64,000 bases of DNA from Spirochaetota bacterium (GTDB lineage Bacteria > Spirochaetota > UBA4802 > JAFGDQ01), in NCBI GenBank assembly GCA_034190085.1, contig JAXHTS010000035.1:1-64000 (forward strand). Reading direction: 5' to 3'. Within the stretch, counting starts at the first letter, position 1. Each line of letters opens with the position of its first letter. The translations under genes were made by a program, and so were the position numbers. Positions 3,038-16,336 of the stretch are shown here, piece after piece. The notes below the pieces were generated by a model. The model was not told the DNA's origin. It saw nothing but the letters and a program-made list of their open reading frames with translations, and did no database searches.

Positions 3038-3958
3038 CTAATTGAATAATCCTGTAGATAGATATCTCTCTCCTGTGTCCGGAAAGACTACTACAATGAG
3101 TTTTCCCCTATTTTCAGCTCTTTTTCCTATCTTAATCGCTGCCCAGGCTGCTGCGCCTGAAGATATGCCCACAACCAAACCCTCATCACGTGCTAATCTC
3201 CTAGCAGTCTGAAGAGCATCTTCATTAGTCACTTGTATCACCTCATCCACAAGATTCATTTTTAATACCTTTGGCACAAATCCAGCGCCAATGCCCTGAA
3301 TCTTATGTGGTCCTGGCGTGCCTCCTGAAAGCACTGGAGAATCTTTCGGTTCAACAGCAATTGTTTTAACTTCTGGTTTTCTCTCCTTAATAATCTCTGT
3401 TATACCGGTGATTGTCCCCCCTGTGCCTACCCCACAAACAACAATGTCCACTTTCCCATCTGTATCTCTCCATATCTCTTCAGAGGTAGTATTACGGTGA
3501 ATTTCGGGATTAGCAGGATTTTCAAATTGCTGGAGGATTAAATATCTTGAGTCACTTTTTACCAATTCATCAGCCTTCATTATCGCGCCCTTCATCCCTT
3601 CACTTCCTGGGGTTAATACTAAATCAGCTCCTAAAGCCTTGAGCAGGCTTCTCCTCTCAAGACTCATTGTATCTGGCATAATGAGAACTAATTTGTACCC
3701 CCTGGCAGCACAAACGAAAGCCAAGGCAATGCCAGTATTCCCACTCGTCGGTTCAAGGATTATTGTGTCTTTATTAATGCTCCCCCTCTTCTCAGCAGCA
3801 TCAATCATGTTTACCCCAATTCTGTCCTTTACGCTTGAAAGCGGGTTGAATGATTCCAACTTTGCAACAATTGAAGCACCAATTCCTTTAGTTATCCTGT
3901 TCAGCCTAACAAGGGGTGTATCCCCTATCAATTTTGTAACATCCTCTGCTATTCTCAT
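3038..3958 (-). CDS. cysK: Cysteine synthase (O-acetylserine sulfhydrylase)
   Basis: A PLP enzyme that makes cysteine from O-acetylserine and sulfide. The 306-residue product has the PLP lysine K44 in NPLSSVKDR, the substrate loop [12 protein letters not shown] and the phosphate-binding GTGGTITG, all in CysK order and at normal length. It starts 22 bases after the Rrf2 gene and is followed by the desulfurase, so cysteine made here could feed the desulfurase. In Gram-positive bacteria a CysK-Rrf2 (CymR) complex controls cysteine genes; whether that occurs here is unknown. A cystathionine beta-synthase-like role cannot be fully excluded. Confidence 0.93.
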
Positions 3959-11806: not shown

Positions 11807-11865
11807 TTTGTTCGCTTCTTTGTGATGATAAACTATTATAATCAAAATGTCATTATCTCACACTC

Positions 11866-11885
11866 ATTCCCGCGAATGCGGGAAT
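11866..11885. repeat. Palindromic repeat, ATTCCCGC type
   Basis: ATTCCCGC (11866-11873) and GCGGGAAT (11878-11885) flank a four-base loop. It belongs to the same repeat family as 12001-12020 and 16585-16604. Confidence 0.65.
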
Positions 11886-12000
11886 CTAAGAACTCATACT
11901 CTACAGAAAATAAATTCTGATTTAGTGAGAAAGTAACTTAGAATACCTGATTTTAAGCCTTTTGCAAAAAAAAAATACTACGTGCAATTCAATCTAATGG

Positions 12001-12020
12001 ATTCCTGCATTCGCAGGAAT
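12001..12020. repeat. Palindromic repeat, ATTCCTGC type
   Basis: ATTCCTGC (12001-12008), loop ATTC, GCAGGAAT (12013-12020), followed by GACA. The same unit with the same following bases occurs at 16585-16608. Confidence 0.65.
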
Positions 12021-12271
12021 GACAGTACCTGACAATTGTTTCCATAACTTAATAATATTGCCCTAAATCCCCTAAAAGGGGGACTTCCTGTATGTCTTTC
12101 AGCTTTTACCAAAGTATCTTCTTAAAAAGCGTCATATTCTTTCTCATATCTCTTTCAAGCAAAATAACTTACTTCAGAGGTGCAATATGAGCATTCATAA
12201 AAAACAAATAACCATTACAACTATAAAACAAAAACAAGAACAAATCTTCAAGTCCACCTTCTGCGGATTTA

Positions 12272-12770
12272 CTGACTTCTACCCACATTTTTTTGTGTAA
12301 AACAAGGAGATGTGGGGATTAAGGAGATATGGAGATATTTAATCAATTTCTATTCTTCTAAAATCTGCCCTCTCCTTAGCAAAGTTAACAAGAATACCAA
12401 CTTTAAGTCCGGTTGCTTTTAAATATGAACGAATTTGAGCATAATGTGATTTACTAAGATTTTCAACAGTCTTGAGTTCAATAATAATTCTATTTTCTAC
12501 AAGAATATCAAGCCTATGACAGCCAATTTGTTCATCTTGATAAAAGATAATAACTTCCTTTTCGTTTTCTGCTGTAATATTACAATTTTTTAACTCAATT
12601 AATAATGCCTTTCTATAAATACTTTCCAAAAATCCTGGACCAAGAGTATTATGAACCTTAATAATAGACTTTATTATTAATTCAGTTAGTTTATCTTCTT
12701 TATATTCAATCACCTTATCTCTATAATCCCCTTATCCCCTATTTTACACTAATTTGTGGGTAGATGTCAG
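12272..12770. repeat. Long imperfect inverted repeat enclosing the GxxExxY gene
   Basis: The left arm (12272-12337) and right arm (12714-12770) are imperfect complements. Read outward from the gene, both contain a GGGGAT-rich part, then TTTTACAC, AA, TGTGGGTAGA and GTCAG. The arms touch the start and stop of the enclosed gene, so gene plus arms make a unit of about 500 bases. This suggests a small mobile or cassette-like unit, or a transcript with a long stem. No target duplication was identified. Confidence 0.6.
12339..12713 (-). CDS. GxxExxY-family protein (PD-(D/E)XK nuclease-like)
   Basis: The 124-residue protein has the signature G27-F-L-E30-S-I-Y33 (GPGFLESIY) that names the family, followed by D69 in RLDILV and E79-L-K81, a PD-(D/E)XK-type active-site arrangement, and the conserved YAQIRSYLKATGLKVGILVNF region split around residue 91-111. 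Biochemical function in bacteria is not established; a nuclease or nucleic-acid role is inferred from fold. The frame opens at a GTG (12713) with AAGG directly before it. The gene sits inside a long inverted repeat, 138 bases downstream of the CHAT gene on the same strand. Confidence 0.85.
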   Translation of the reverse strand: MIEYKEDKLTELIIKSIIKVHNTLGPGFLESIYRKALLIELKNCNITAENEKEVIIFYQDEQIGCHRLDILVENRIIIELKTVENLSKSHYAQIRSYLKATGLKVGILVNFAKERADFRRIEID

Positions 12771-12850
12771 GGGGGATTTAGGGGTAGGGGGGCTCCACAT
12801 GCATAGTCGTAATCTTTTCGCAAAAAATTGCACGATACAGCCTTGCCACA

Positions 12851-15800
12851 CTACAACACTCCCATCTCTTTAAGCATTTTCTCTACTGATTTAATATCGG
12901 CAAAATTTGCCTGCCTGCCTATCTCATAGCTTCTTATAAGAATTTGACGCCCTTCCTCTTTGTTGCCATTTACATAAAGAAATTGCCCAAGGGCAAGACC
13001 AACGTGATATAATCCCATTGCATCACCTGTTTCTGCTGCTAATTTGTAAGCAGTTGATTCATATTCAACAAATTTTTGATAATCGTTCTTTTTTATAGCA
13101 ATCATGGCCATATTGTGCAATGTTATAATTTGACCGCTCTTATCCCCAATCTCTTGACTGATTTTTAAACTATCCTCAAGATATTTAAGAGCAGTCTTAT
13201 AATCGCCTCGGGTATAATAATTACTACCAATATTACTAAGCGTAGTACCTTGGCCTGATTTATACCCAATCTCTTGACGGATTTTTAAACTATCCTCAAG
13301 ATATTTTAGAGCAGTCTCATAATCGCCTCGGGCGTCGTATATCTGACTGATATTATTTAGCGTAGTACCTTGGCCTGATTTATCCCCAATCTCTTGACGG
13401 ATTTTTAAACTATCCTCAAGATATTTTAGAGCAGTCTCATAATCGCCTCGGGTATAATAATTACTACCAATATTATTAAGCGTAGTACCTTGGCCTGATT
13501 TATCCCCAATCTCTTGACTTATTTTTAAACTATCCTCAAGATATTTTAGAGCAGTCTCATAATCGCCTCGGGCGTCGTATATCTGACTGATATTATTTAG
13601 CGTAGTACCTTGGCCTGATTTATCCCCAATCTCTTGACGGATTTTTAAACTATCCTCAAGATATTTTAGAGCAGTCTCATAATCGCCTCGGGCGTTGTAT
13701 ATCTGACTGATATTATTTAGCGTAGTACCTTGGCCTGATTTATCCCCAATCTCTCCATATTTTAACAACGTCGTATTAAAAAATTCTAAAGCATCTTCAT
13801 AGTTTCCATATAAATGTAATAGTAATCCTAATCTGTTTAGGACTGAAGCATCTGTTCCTTTACCGAGCAAATGATAAACCTTCATTGCATAATAGTAAGA
13901 ATTCTGGTATAGTGAATAGGCATAATAGTGACTTGAAAGCATGTCCCCAATAGACCCTGTCCGATTTTTAATGTTAGCGCCCTCAAAATGAAAAAACGCC
14001 TGTTCAAGCTCAGTTATAGAATTTTCAATATTTTCAAAGCAGTGATAATGATAAATTCCAGCCTGCTTATGTGAAAAGTCTGCGGAGGGAATGTTAATAT
14101 CTGCATCAGTCAATATATCCTTAACAATGGAAGTGCAGTAAAAATAGACTTTATCTATTTCGGGGTTTAGCGATATTTCAATCAGTGTAAGGTCATTTAG
14201 ATAAGAAAGTATGTCTTCAATATCCTTTAAATCTTCAGCATCCTGAATTTGCAATTGCAGGGCAAATTGCTGAACAGGAATCTGAAAATTGGAAAGAAGC
14301 CCAAGCATGACCTGGTGTTTTGGATTTAGCAGATTAAATAATTCGCCAATAAGAATATTCTGGCTCATCTTCATTTTCACCTGTTCGGTTTCTTTTGCAT
14401 ACTTTTTACGAAAGGTTTCCAGAGAATCGAGAGCATGTCTGATTTTCCCAGGGTCATTTTTAAAGAGTTCGTTAAAAAACTCAAGCGCCCTGTAATTGCC
14501 CCCAAATGACTGGTGCAGGTCTTTTGCAATATCAACAAACTCGAGCTTTTTTTGAAATGAAGGCTGATTCTCATTCTGCAATTTTTGAATATGTTCAACA
14601 ATTCCATAAAGCTCCAGGTTGTGACACTTTTTCCAGAAATCGTTAAAGCCAACCTGATTCAGGTCAAAACTGGCTATGCCTTTAAAATCGGGCAATGGAT
14701 ACCTGGAGGTCAAAATTACATAGTGGTTTTGAACACGGATTAGGAAATCAATCACATCCTTAATATCCTGGTATTCTTCAGATATCTCTGTGCCAGGTCC
14801 CTTTTGAAAGGTCTCCAGATTATCGAAAATAAAGACAGGCCTGCATACACTTGCAGTCTGGCCAACGAGATACATAAGCTGGTCCATGCCCTTATCGCAC
14901 AAACCAAATTCCTTACTATTAAATTTACTCTTTTTTTTAAGAAACTCCTGTAGTTGATTCTGGATATCCTGGAAGGATTTGATCTTTTCATTAAAAACAA
15001 AGGGCTCTGTTTTCGGATATGATGCTATTAGGCGCTGTACCATATGTTCTGACATAGCGGTTTTGCCAACACCGCCCATGCCCTTTAATAAAACAGGTTT
15101 TTTAGCAAAAAAAGGCGGCATAATCCTCGCCTTATCCAGTCTGCGGCCTATAAATATATAATCCTTATCATGTTTCAGCAGAAGCCTGTCCTTTTCATAA
15201 ATAAAACGATAGGAGGACAATTCCAGTTTCTCCTGTGGGCTATCCCAGTCCACAAGGTGTTCAATGTTTTTTGAGAGATAGATGTTTGGAATGATCCACT
15301 GCAAAGGTTGCGGTGTTTTGACCTTTGCATTGATCTGGTCTTTATATTCCTGCTCTTTCATGTGTGTTACTGCAGAATTAAACGCGACTAGAATATTCTG
15401 CTTTTTTGCAATCTGCGCATAAAAATGAGCGCTGAATTCGGTCGCGTATTTGTCCAAAACAGCCATGCCCATTGAAATGACTGCTGAAATGCCAGTTCTT
15501 AGCAGATGATTTGTTATTCCACGCAGACCCTCTTCATTGCTGCCCTGTGCAGATTGACATGAAGCGAGCGCTACTAATGGAATTTTGTAATCAGGATTAC
15601 AATTCAGTGTGTCTGCAAATTCCTTTGCGCTTACCCTGTTAAGGGTTAAGTCTAATGGATTCTCTAAATCTAGCACACCTGTGCCGTCTATAAAAGAGGC
15701 ATGTCCTGAATAGTGCAGAACATGGTATCTATTCTTTTTTATCTTTGTCTCCAGAGCCTCAAGCGAGCCGTCATCAGTAAAATCGATCTGCACCTGGCCT

Positions 15801-16300
15801 TTACGGAGCAAGGGGTAAAATGCCTGTAATATTTGAAATTCTTCATCTTCATAGGATAATCTGCCTTTATAATCAACAACCTCAGGTGATGAGATCATAA
15901 TCAAAATCTTGAGAGGGGGCGCAAGTTCTGCAGGTTTTGGTTTTTTTACATCTTCTACAAAATCGGGTAAACATTTGGTAAGTATAAGCTGTTGAATGTT
16001 TCCAAGAGGTTGACTGGATATCTTATCAATAGCCATTATCCAGGGTAGGTTTAGTATTTCATTGTCATGGTGCAAAAGCTGAATCACAAAATAGTCACCT
16101 GAATTATTTATCTTTTTCAGTACATCTGTAAATTCACGCGTTGAATTGATGATGTTGGATAATATTGCCTTCATATTTTCGAGCACATCAGCCCGAAGAG
16201 GAAAGCCCTGTTCCAGATGTTTGATGATCTTAGCGTTCTCTTCTTTTAGTTCTTCAGTTTGTTTATTTTTGATGTCTGGATTGATCTGTTTGTAAATCAT
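12851..16300 (-). CDS. CHAT protease-STAND NTPase-TPR protein
   Basis: A three-part protein of 1149 residues from the preferred ATG at 16300 (GGAAAG lies about 8 bases upstream; the frame opens at 16336, and numbers here count from that). Residues about 140-355 form a CHAT caspase-like protease with His212 (HYSGHA) and Cys260 (ALASCQS). Residues about 395-700 are a STAND/NB-ARC-like NTPase with Walker A GMGGVGKT (419-426) and Walker B FIFDN (502-506). Residues about 820-1160 are TPRs, several nearly identical. This layout is typical of signalling or conflict proteins in which the repeats sense and the protease executes; the target is unknown. It lies in a repeat-rich island next to small unknown genes. 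Confidence 0.9.
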   Translation of the reverse strand: MIYKQINPDIKNKQTEELKEENAKIIKHLEQGFPLRADVLENMKAILSNIINSTREFTDVLKKINNSGDYFVIQLLHHDNEILNLPWIMAIDKISSQPLGNIQQLILTKCLPDFVEDVKKPKPAELAPPLKILIMISSPEVVDYKGRLSYEDEEFQILQAFYPLLRKGQVQIDFTDDGSLEALETKIKKNRYHVLHYSGHASFIDGTGVLDLENPLDLTLNRVSAKEFADTLNCNPDYKIPLVALASCQSAQGSNEEGLRGITNHLLRTGISAVISMGMAVLDKYATEFSAHFYAQIAKKQNILVAFNSAVTHMKEQEYKDQINAKVKTPQPLQWIIPNIYLSKNIEHLVDWDSPQEKLELSSYRFIYEKDRLLLKHDKDYIFIGRRLDKARIMPPFFAKKPVLLKGMGGVGKTAMSEHMVQRLIASYPKTEPFVFNEKIKSFQDIQNQLQEFLKKKSKFNSKEFGLCDKGMDQLMYLVGQTASVCRPVFIFDNLETFQKGPGTEISEEYQDIKDVIDFLIRVQNHYVILTSRYPLPDFKGIASFDLNQVGFNDFWKKCHNLELYGIVEHIQKLQNENQPSFQKKLEFVDIAKDLHQSFGGNYRALEFFNELFKNDPGKIRHALDSLETFRKKYAKETEQVKMKMSQNILIGELFNLLNPKHQVMLGLLSNFQIPVQQFALQLQIQDAEDLKDIEDILSYLNDLTLIEISLNPEIDKVYFYCTSIVKDILTDADINIPSADFSHKQAGIYHYHCFENIENSITELEQAFFHFEGANIKNRTGSIGDMLSSHYYAYSLYQNSYYYAMKVYHLLGKGTDASVLNRLGLLLHLYGNYEDALEFFNTTLLKYGEIGDKSGQGTTLNNISQIYNARGDYETALKYLEDSLKIRQEIGDKSGQGTTLNNISQIYDARGDYETALKYLEDSLKISQEIGDKSGQGTTLNNIGSNYYTRGDYETALKYLEDSLKIRQEIGDKSGQGTTLNNISQIYDARGDYETALKYLEDSLKIRQEIGYKSGQGTTLSNIGSNYYTRGDYKTALKYLEDSLKISQEIGDKSGQIITLHNMAMIAIKKNDYQKFVEYESTAYKLAAETGDAMGLYHVGLALGQFLYVNGNKEEGRQILIRSYEIGRQANFADIKSVEKMLKEMGVL
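13141..13760 (-). repeat. Tandem 120-bp coding repeats (TPR units) in the CHAT gene
   Basis: About five copies of an exact 120-base period encode 40-residue TPR units containing GDYETALKYLEDSLKI and SGQGTTLNNI. Copies differ at only a few bases, mainly where the unit reads IYDARGDY versus YYTRGDY, and where IRQEIG alternates with ISQEIG. Such DNA-level identity points to recent duplication or gene conversion, and the copy number may vary between strains. Confidence 0.9.
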
Positions 16301-16336
16301 TATTATCTTTCCTTTCAAAGTATATAATTCAATCAA

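Follow-up and report, generated by a model that had tools for sequence, protein, structure and literature searches.

A 499-bp GxxExxY nuclease unit in a Spirochaetota genome resembles a transposase-free mobile insertion cassette

The GxxExxY gene studied here lies within a 499-bp unit of the window (the whole 64,000-nucleotide stretch of Spirochaetota DNA that was analyzed; table 1). We consider this unit, with a probability of roughly 0.6, to be a non-autonomous DNA transposon of the mobile insertion cassette kind, carrying a nuclease gene as cargo and inserted via a staggered cut, with inner arms that are the gene's own. A search of the same genome with positions 12200-12830 placed the unit at seven or more locations, the window and six others. 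Four of the others are full length and 93-97% identical (C15:44199-44697, C81:30175-30674, C7:147527-148008, and C9:3295-3793) and two are damaged (one on C5 and, with an internal deletion, C15:75666-75925). In the alignment of these copies homology stops at CTGAC...GTCAG, that is at 12272 and 12770, and the sequence outside is unrelated; the compact unit of about 500 bases first recognized from its 375-base gene and arms alone is thereby delimited exactly.

The window copy is flanked by a 10-bp target duplication with two mismatches (TGCGGATTTA/GGGGGATTTA), and four of the five other copies in which both ends survive have 9-bp duplications with zero, one, one, and two mismatches (AGTATGCAC/AGTATGCAC, TGTGAATAC/TGTGAAAAC, AATATGACG/CATATGACG, TCTTCTGTA/TCTTCAATA), a target duplication being absent from the C7 copy. 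Two paralogous sites, on C58 and C42, are empty: they lack the unit, align at ∼80% with the window on both of its flanks, and read ...AAGTCCCCCTTCGTGGGATTTAGGGGGG... at the target. Sharp-ended copies, target duplications, and paralogous empty sites together indicate an insertion event at the sequence level. The original prediction had likened the unit to a small cassette moving as one piece, to be sought through empty sites and duplicated target bases; both were found, and with the sharp-ended copies they strongly support movement of the entire unit.

Table 1. Features of the 499-bp unit and its surroundings (positions in the window)
Feature	Position	Strand	Remarks
Left part of decayed DUF559 hairpin unit	12060..12271	-	83% identical to C42:3619-3788; 12060-12086 is the outer arm GCCCTAAATCCCCTAAAAGGGGGACTT; also a gene remnant and, from 12250, the beginning of the other arm (AAGTCC...)
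Left target duplication, TGCGGATTTA	12262..12271	+	8/10 identical to right one; single in the C58 and C42 empty sites
Whole mobile unit, 499 bp	12272..12770	- (gene strand)	Same interval in C15, C81, C7, and C9 copies; flanks unrelated
Left terminal inverted repeat core, CTGACTTCTACCCACA	12272..12287	+	Common to own-genome copies and elements in other genomes of the order
Inner arm with iterated GGAGAT/GGGGATT motif, TGTGTAAAACAAGGAGATGTGGGGATTAAGGAGATATGGAGATA	12294..12337	+	
GxxExxY gene, GTG start, 375 bp, 124 aa	12339..12713	-	PD-(D/E)XK nuclease residues E30, D69, E79-x-K81, Q93-xxx-Y97
Other inner arm, AGTGTAAAATAGGGGATAAGGGGATTATAGAGATAAGGTGAT (reverse strand)	12709..12750	-	Presumed ribosome-binding site and GTG start inside
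Right terminal inverted repeat core, CTGACATCTACCCACA (- strand reading)	12755..12770	-	
Right target duplication, GGGGGATTTA	12771..12780	+	
Rest of interrupted DUF559-unit arm, GGGGTAGGGGGGCTCC	12781..12796	-	Aligns with C58/C42 just past the empty target
			

The inverted arms around the gene are present as first described, with all of the shared words in opposite orientation, and the observation is stronger than was claimed. Global alignment of 12272-12337 with the reverse complement of 12709-12770 gives 50 identical columns out of 66, and the local arm score of 48 compares with 15 on average and 33 at most in ∼3000 control pairs of 100-base stretches taken at the same spacing within the window. 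Terminal inverted repeats sit at the exact ends of the unit, as in a mobile insertion cassette or a MITE, and iterated GGGGATA-type motifs make up a second pair of arms internal to them. The only sizeable open reading frame is that of the GxxExxY protein, and the unit contains no transposase. Read as RNA it is predicted to form a single extended stem that encloses the coding sequence (-125.6 kcal/mol, z = -5.45), a fold that had been offered as an alternative to mobility and that the gene family shares in general.

The encoded protein clearly belongs to GxxExxY (TIGR04256, 134.9 bits with a cut-off of 35; PF13366 or PDDEXK_3, 135.9 bits with a cut-off of 22). Residues G27, E30, Y33, D69, E79, K81, and Y97 are invariant and Q93 nearly so in two protein alignments, and D69, E79-x-K81, and Q93-xxx-Y97 correspond to the RecB/Cas4 signature. 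The nearest PDB fold to an AlphaFold model of the protein (pLDDT 95.5) is that of Cas4 SSO0001 (4ic1, E 2.3e-5, TM-score 0.59), and lambda exonuclease (3slp, E 8.8e-4) is also similar. Profile scores, catalytic residues, and predicted fold agree with the likeness to PD-(D/E)XK nucleases noted at the outset, and we predict a minimal Cas4/RecB-type nuclease. Inserted gene copies have accumulated 12 synonymous and 43 non-synonymous changes (dN/dS ∼0.9), with stops in two of them, whereas the window copy is intact and closest to the consensus; near-neutral drift after insertion fits the expectation for a selfish element. A search of phages for GxxExxY gave zero matches and thus no indication of a phage gene. 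A role in defense was considered and rejected, the defense libraries giving only weak partial similarity. Further GxxExxY genes or pseudogenes of another subfamily occur in the same genome at L021 (G000:C34, with GTCTGAACCACTGATT arms), L022 (G000:C37), and L024 (G000:C67).

Comparison of the flanks of other GxxExxY genes showed that homologous loci do have inverted flanks. Arm scores of at least 30 were obtained for 81% of 79 loci from many phyla, these being the loci with flanks long enough, versus 2% of 429 control ORFs drawn from the same loci (p = 4e-34); about a quarter of the 79 are closely related Flavobacterium or Bacteroidales copies, so that not all are independent. Once similar proteins are removed 39 loci remain, and arms of this kind still occur in at least seven groups. 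The iterated motif varies among lineages: that of the window (a Nitrospinae MAG included) has GGGGATA, Flavobacterium has CGCAGATTT, Planctomycetes have CACGAAG and CACAAAG, several groups have CACAGAG, and the order of the host has CAGGATT or CACGGATT. Arm similarity tracks protein similarity, both overall (rho 0.31, permutation p < 0.001) and between phyla (rho 0.16, p = 0.012). The motif type of the window's inner arms recurs at the closest GxxExxY genes (the Nitrospinae MAG and G019) and in gene-less hairpins of G008 and G021. Plasmids yielded eight records with distant GxxExxY genes, and of the six inspected one (Bernardetia, CACAGAG arms) scores well for arms. Arms also surround 16 of the 28 DUF559 genes of the order.

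Inverted iterated arms thus appear to be the usual design around GxxExxY genes across bacteria. As similar arms surround most bacterial GxxExxY genes, the inner arms would be a property of the gene, not of this transposon. In a scan for the best terminal inverted repeats at other GxxExxY genes, arms were seen and convincing target duplications were not, and we therefore do not claim generic GxxExxY units as transposons. On this comparison the unit has two layers, the family-wide inner arms of the nuclease gene and, around them, what appear to be transposon ends specific to one element family.

The target in the window is a hairpin arm of an older, decayed DUF559 nuclease unit. An intact relative of that unit is found at C42:3300-3790 (L016), with a DUF559 gene at 3370-3687 (127 bits) within GCCCCCTAAATCCCCC...GGGGGACTT arms. 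C58 (L015) holds another, gene-less remnant of a DUF559 unit. Elements of this family have palindromic targets as a rule: 38% of reconstructed targets reached a stem score of 6 or more, versus 1.8% of control spots (p = 1.5e-10), examples being CCCTCTCCAAATTGGAGAGGG in G021, which is split with CCAAATTGG duplicated, and CCTCTCCTGGCAGGAGAGG in G008. Beside the DUF559 remnant in the window lies a dispersed-looking palindromic region at 11850-12030 (ATTCCCGCGAATGCGGGAATC ... GATTCCTGCATTCGCAGGAATGAC). On the other side of the unit, 12851-16336 holds a 1161-aa CHAT-like/NTPase gene with several near-identical TPR-type DNA repeats, named by eye.

Relatives of the unit are frequent in the order. With at most one mismatch, the end motif CTNACTTCTACCCACA occurs at 113 sites in 14 of 46 genomes (four sites for the reversed control motif), where it bounds dozens of gene-less hairpin elements of 98-310 bp belonging to several subfamilies, most of these elements lying within palindromes. 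Duplications of at least 8 bp with no more than two mismatches flank 23 of 39 related elements, against a chance rate of 0.8%; a clear duplication is absent from the remaining 16, whose ends are partly mis-set, old, or rearranged. A DUF559 gene lies between family ends in G013 (548 bp) and G028 (∼628 bp, CTGACTTGTACC variant), each with one decayed end, and DUF559 remnants persist inside gene-less elements of G004 and G013 (tblastn 8e-8 and 9e-9). Elements with family ends that have kept a gene carry either GxxExxY or DUF559, both small nucleases, and never a transposase. The concern that the arms might be ordinary dispersed repeats holds to the extent that they do occur without the gene; they do so as hairpin elements, and for at least some of these, origin by deletion from elements with a gene can be demonstrated.

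In G021, one gene-less family element is nested in another (L196 1013-1315, G021:C49), the outer one having a perfect CCAAATTGG duplication within a 21-bp palindrome. The same genome contains a deletion derivative of a different GxxExxY unit (L339 ∼1160-1370, G021:C64) with GGAACCGCCG...CGGCGGTTCC ends and GCGGATGAACGCAGATT arms; these ends represent another terminal-repeat type for GxxExxY, independent of the first.

No transposase was found between family ends in the 46 draft genomes of the order, where all two-ended elements measure at most ∼630 bp, and the pattern lists for these genomes contain no end pairs spaced 0.8-3 kb. A search for an autonomous insertion sequence with the 16-mer ends recovered none in the host genome (up to three mismatches), in the 46 genomes, or at DDE_Tnp_1 genes. 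Family repeats were absent at DDE_Tnp_1 genes in six genomes, the host and five others, in a profile search confined to DDE_Tnp_1; G004, with ∼15 perfect-ended copies, gave zero DDE_Tnp_1 matches. Classification of the unit as an IS4/IS50-like insertion sequence was rejected, there being no DDE_Tnp_1 transposase between the ends. Viral contigs contained 18 single matches to the end motif and zero pairs, and plasmids had no significant match to the family ends. Draft assemblies lose insertion sequence copies, which bears on the absence of an autonomous partner; given that neither a transposase nor a two-ended element larger than ∼630 bp was recovered, the transposase would be missing from the drafts, unlinked, or non-existent.

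Fixed-length duplications at exact terminal inverted repeats are the hallmark of DDE-type transposases. A PD-(D/E)XK nuclease does not belong to that class, and PD-(D/E)XK enzymes are not known to carry out DDE-type strand transfer. Duplications of this kind suggest that a transposase is provided in trans. The terminal inverted repeats (CTGACTTCTACCCACA...) form the ends of the element, and we propose that the transposase would recognize CTNACTTCTACCCACA and may mobilize the gene-less relatives as well. Insertion, probably through a staggered cut, left target duplications of 9-10 bp and favored the stems or loops of palindromes that resemble terminators, in the window the DUF559-unit arm. Within the transcript the inner arms may base-pair and occlude the start codon, so that the gene would be silent when read through from outside; alternatively or additionally, they may be DNA sites on which the nuclease acts.

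Tn5/IS50 ends, which begin with CTGACT... and are accompanied by 9-bp duplications as here, offer a possible parallel, with 13 of 19 positions matching the Tn5 outside end CTGACTCTTATACACAAGT; unlike Tn5/IS50, the ends of this family have no DDE_Tnp_1 gene with them in the six genomes checked. The unit resembles mobile insertion cassettes such as MIC231 of Bacillus cereus (PMC6542083, PMC3129680) in having terminal inverted repeats, a gene unrelated to transposition, no transposase, and presumed mobilization in trans. It differs from them in its length of only 499 bp, its nuclease cargo, its internal iterated arms, its preference for palindromic targets, and in that a related insertion sequence was not found. 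Shortness, terminal inverted repeats, target duplications, a strong hairpin, and gene-less relatives in high copy number are shared with MITEs, whereas the unit has an ORF and, where parents of gene-less copies can be identified, these carry DUF559 instead of a transposase. With REPIN-RAYT systems (PMC3116915) it shares an enzyme gene near hairpin-pairing repeats, dispersed gene-less doublets, and vertical inheritance of the gene in some genera, but its enzyme is a PD-(D/E)XK nuclease instead of a Y1 (HUH) tyrosine transposase and it has target duplications. Membership of REPIN-RAYT was rejected, as no Y1 tyrosine transposase gene lies beside the repeats.

A broader reading, which we regard as rather unlikely, is that GxxExxY and DUF559 genes belong to a hitherto unrecognized, phylum-wide class of mobile hairpin elements, the nuclease-based analog of REPIN-RAYT, whose only encoded enzyme would be a small restriction-fold nuclease recognizing its own iterated inverted arms, with gene-less hairpins, nested insertions, and the targeting of terminator-like palindromes as products of its activity. 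It is also doubtful that the GxxExxY nuclease (elsewhere DUF559) is itself the mobility or maintenance enzyme of the hairpin element, recognizing the arm motif or a cruciform and cutting hairpin targets or the empty site so that the unit is spread or retained; the ends would perhaps be joined by a recombinase of host or foreign origin. TnpB for IS200/IS605 and RAYT for REPINs are analogs of such an arrangement. As no transposase with family ends was found, self-mobilization by the nuclease keeps some plausibility, and the only genes between those ends come from two unrelated nuclease families. Gene-less derivatives coexist with them, GxxExxY genes have arms across phyla with motifs that follow the protein, and the targets are themselves hairpins, in the window the arm of another nuclease's unit; the Cas4/lambda-exonuclease-like predicted fold is that of a class of DNA-end and branch nucleases. 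However, the fixed 9-10 bp duplications at exact ends suggest DDE-type strand transfer, the nuclease genes drift in inserted copies, and DUF559 is present in 33 of the 46 genomes irrespective of the abundance of family ends. Moreover, ∼13 Flavobacterium species have the GxxExxY gene at one largely syntenic locus, where recent movement is not evident.

The near-neutral evolution of the copies and the gene-less majority among elements with family ends would also suit an ordinary MITE or cassette in which GxxExxY is an incidental passenger gained once and the inner arms are the old terminator or attenuator repeats of the gene. We consider this unlikely, because similar arms surround most GxxExxY and many DUF559 genes everywhere and nuclease genes were acquired between family ends at least twice, independently. 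Least probable by far is that the arms are merely an RNA device, a stem controlling translation or one trimmed by RNase III (cf. the intervening sequences of 23S rRNA), dispersed by recombination. The stability of the predicted stem favors it, as does the co-evolution of arms at the fixed Flavobacterium locus, where the two arms of a species are more alike than arms compared between species (permutation p = 1e-4, although an arm's own partner is its best match in only 6 of 13 cases). As a complete explanation it is contradicted, since target duplications, empty sites, and palindromic targets are left unexplained; it may still apply to the inner arms.

GxxExxY and DUF559 are widespread, multi-copy, and poorly understood nuclease families, and our results suggest a role for them in hairpin elements, as cargo or as engines, which would explain the odd iterated repeats of both and their location in intergenic palindromes. 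In the open literature searched we did not find a description of mobile hairpin units that include GxxExxY or DUF559, or of family-wide arms around GxxExxY genes. If the nuclease takes part in mobility, it would represent a new mobile-element principle; if it does not, the family would still clearly exemplify the repeated recruitment of nuclease genes into transposase-free cassettes, with testable ends, targets, and empty sites.

The longest inverted arms found, 177 bases each, belong to a GxxExxY locus of a Bacteroidota MAG (L298, 4700-5000 and downstream).
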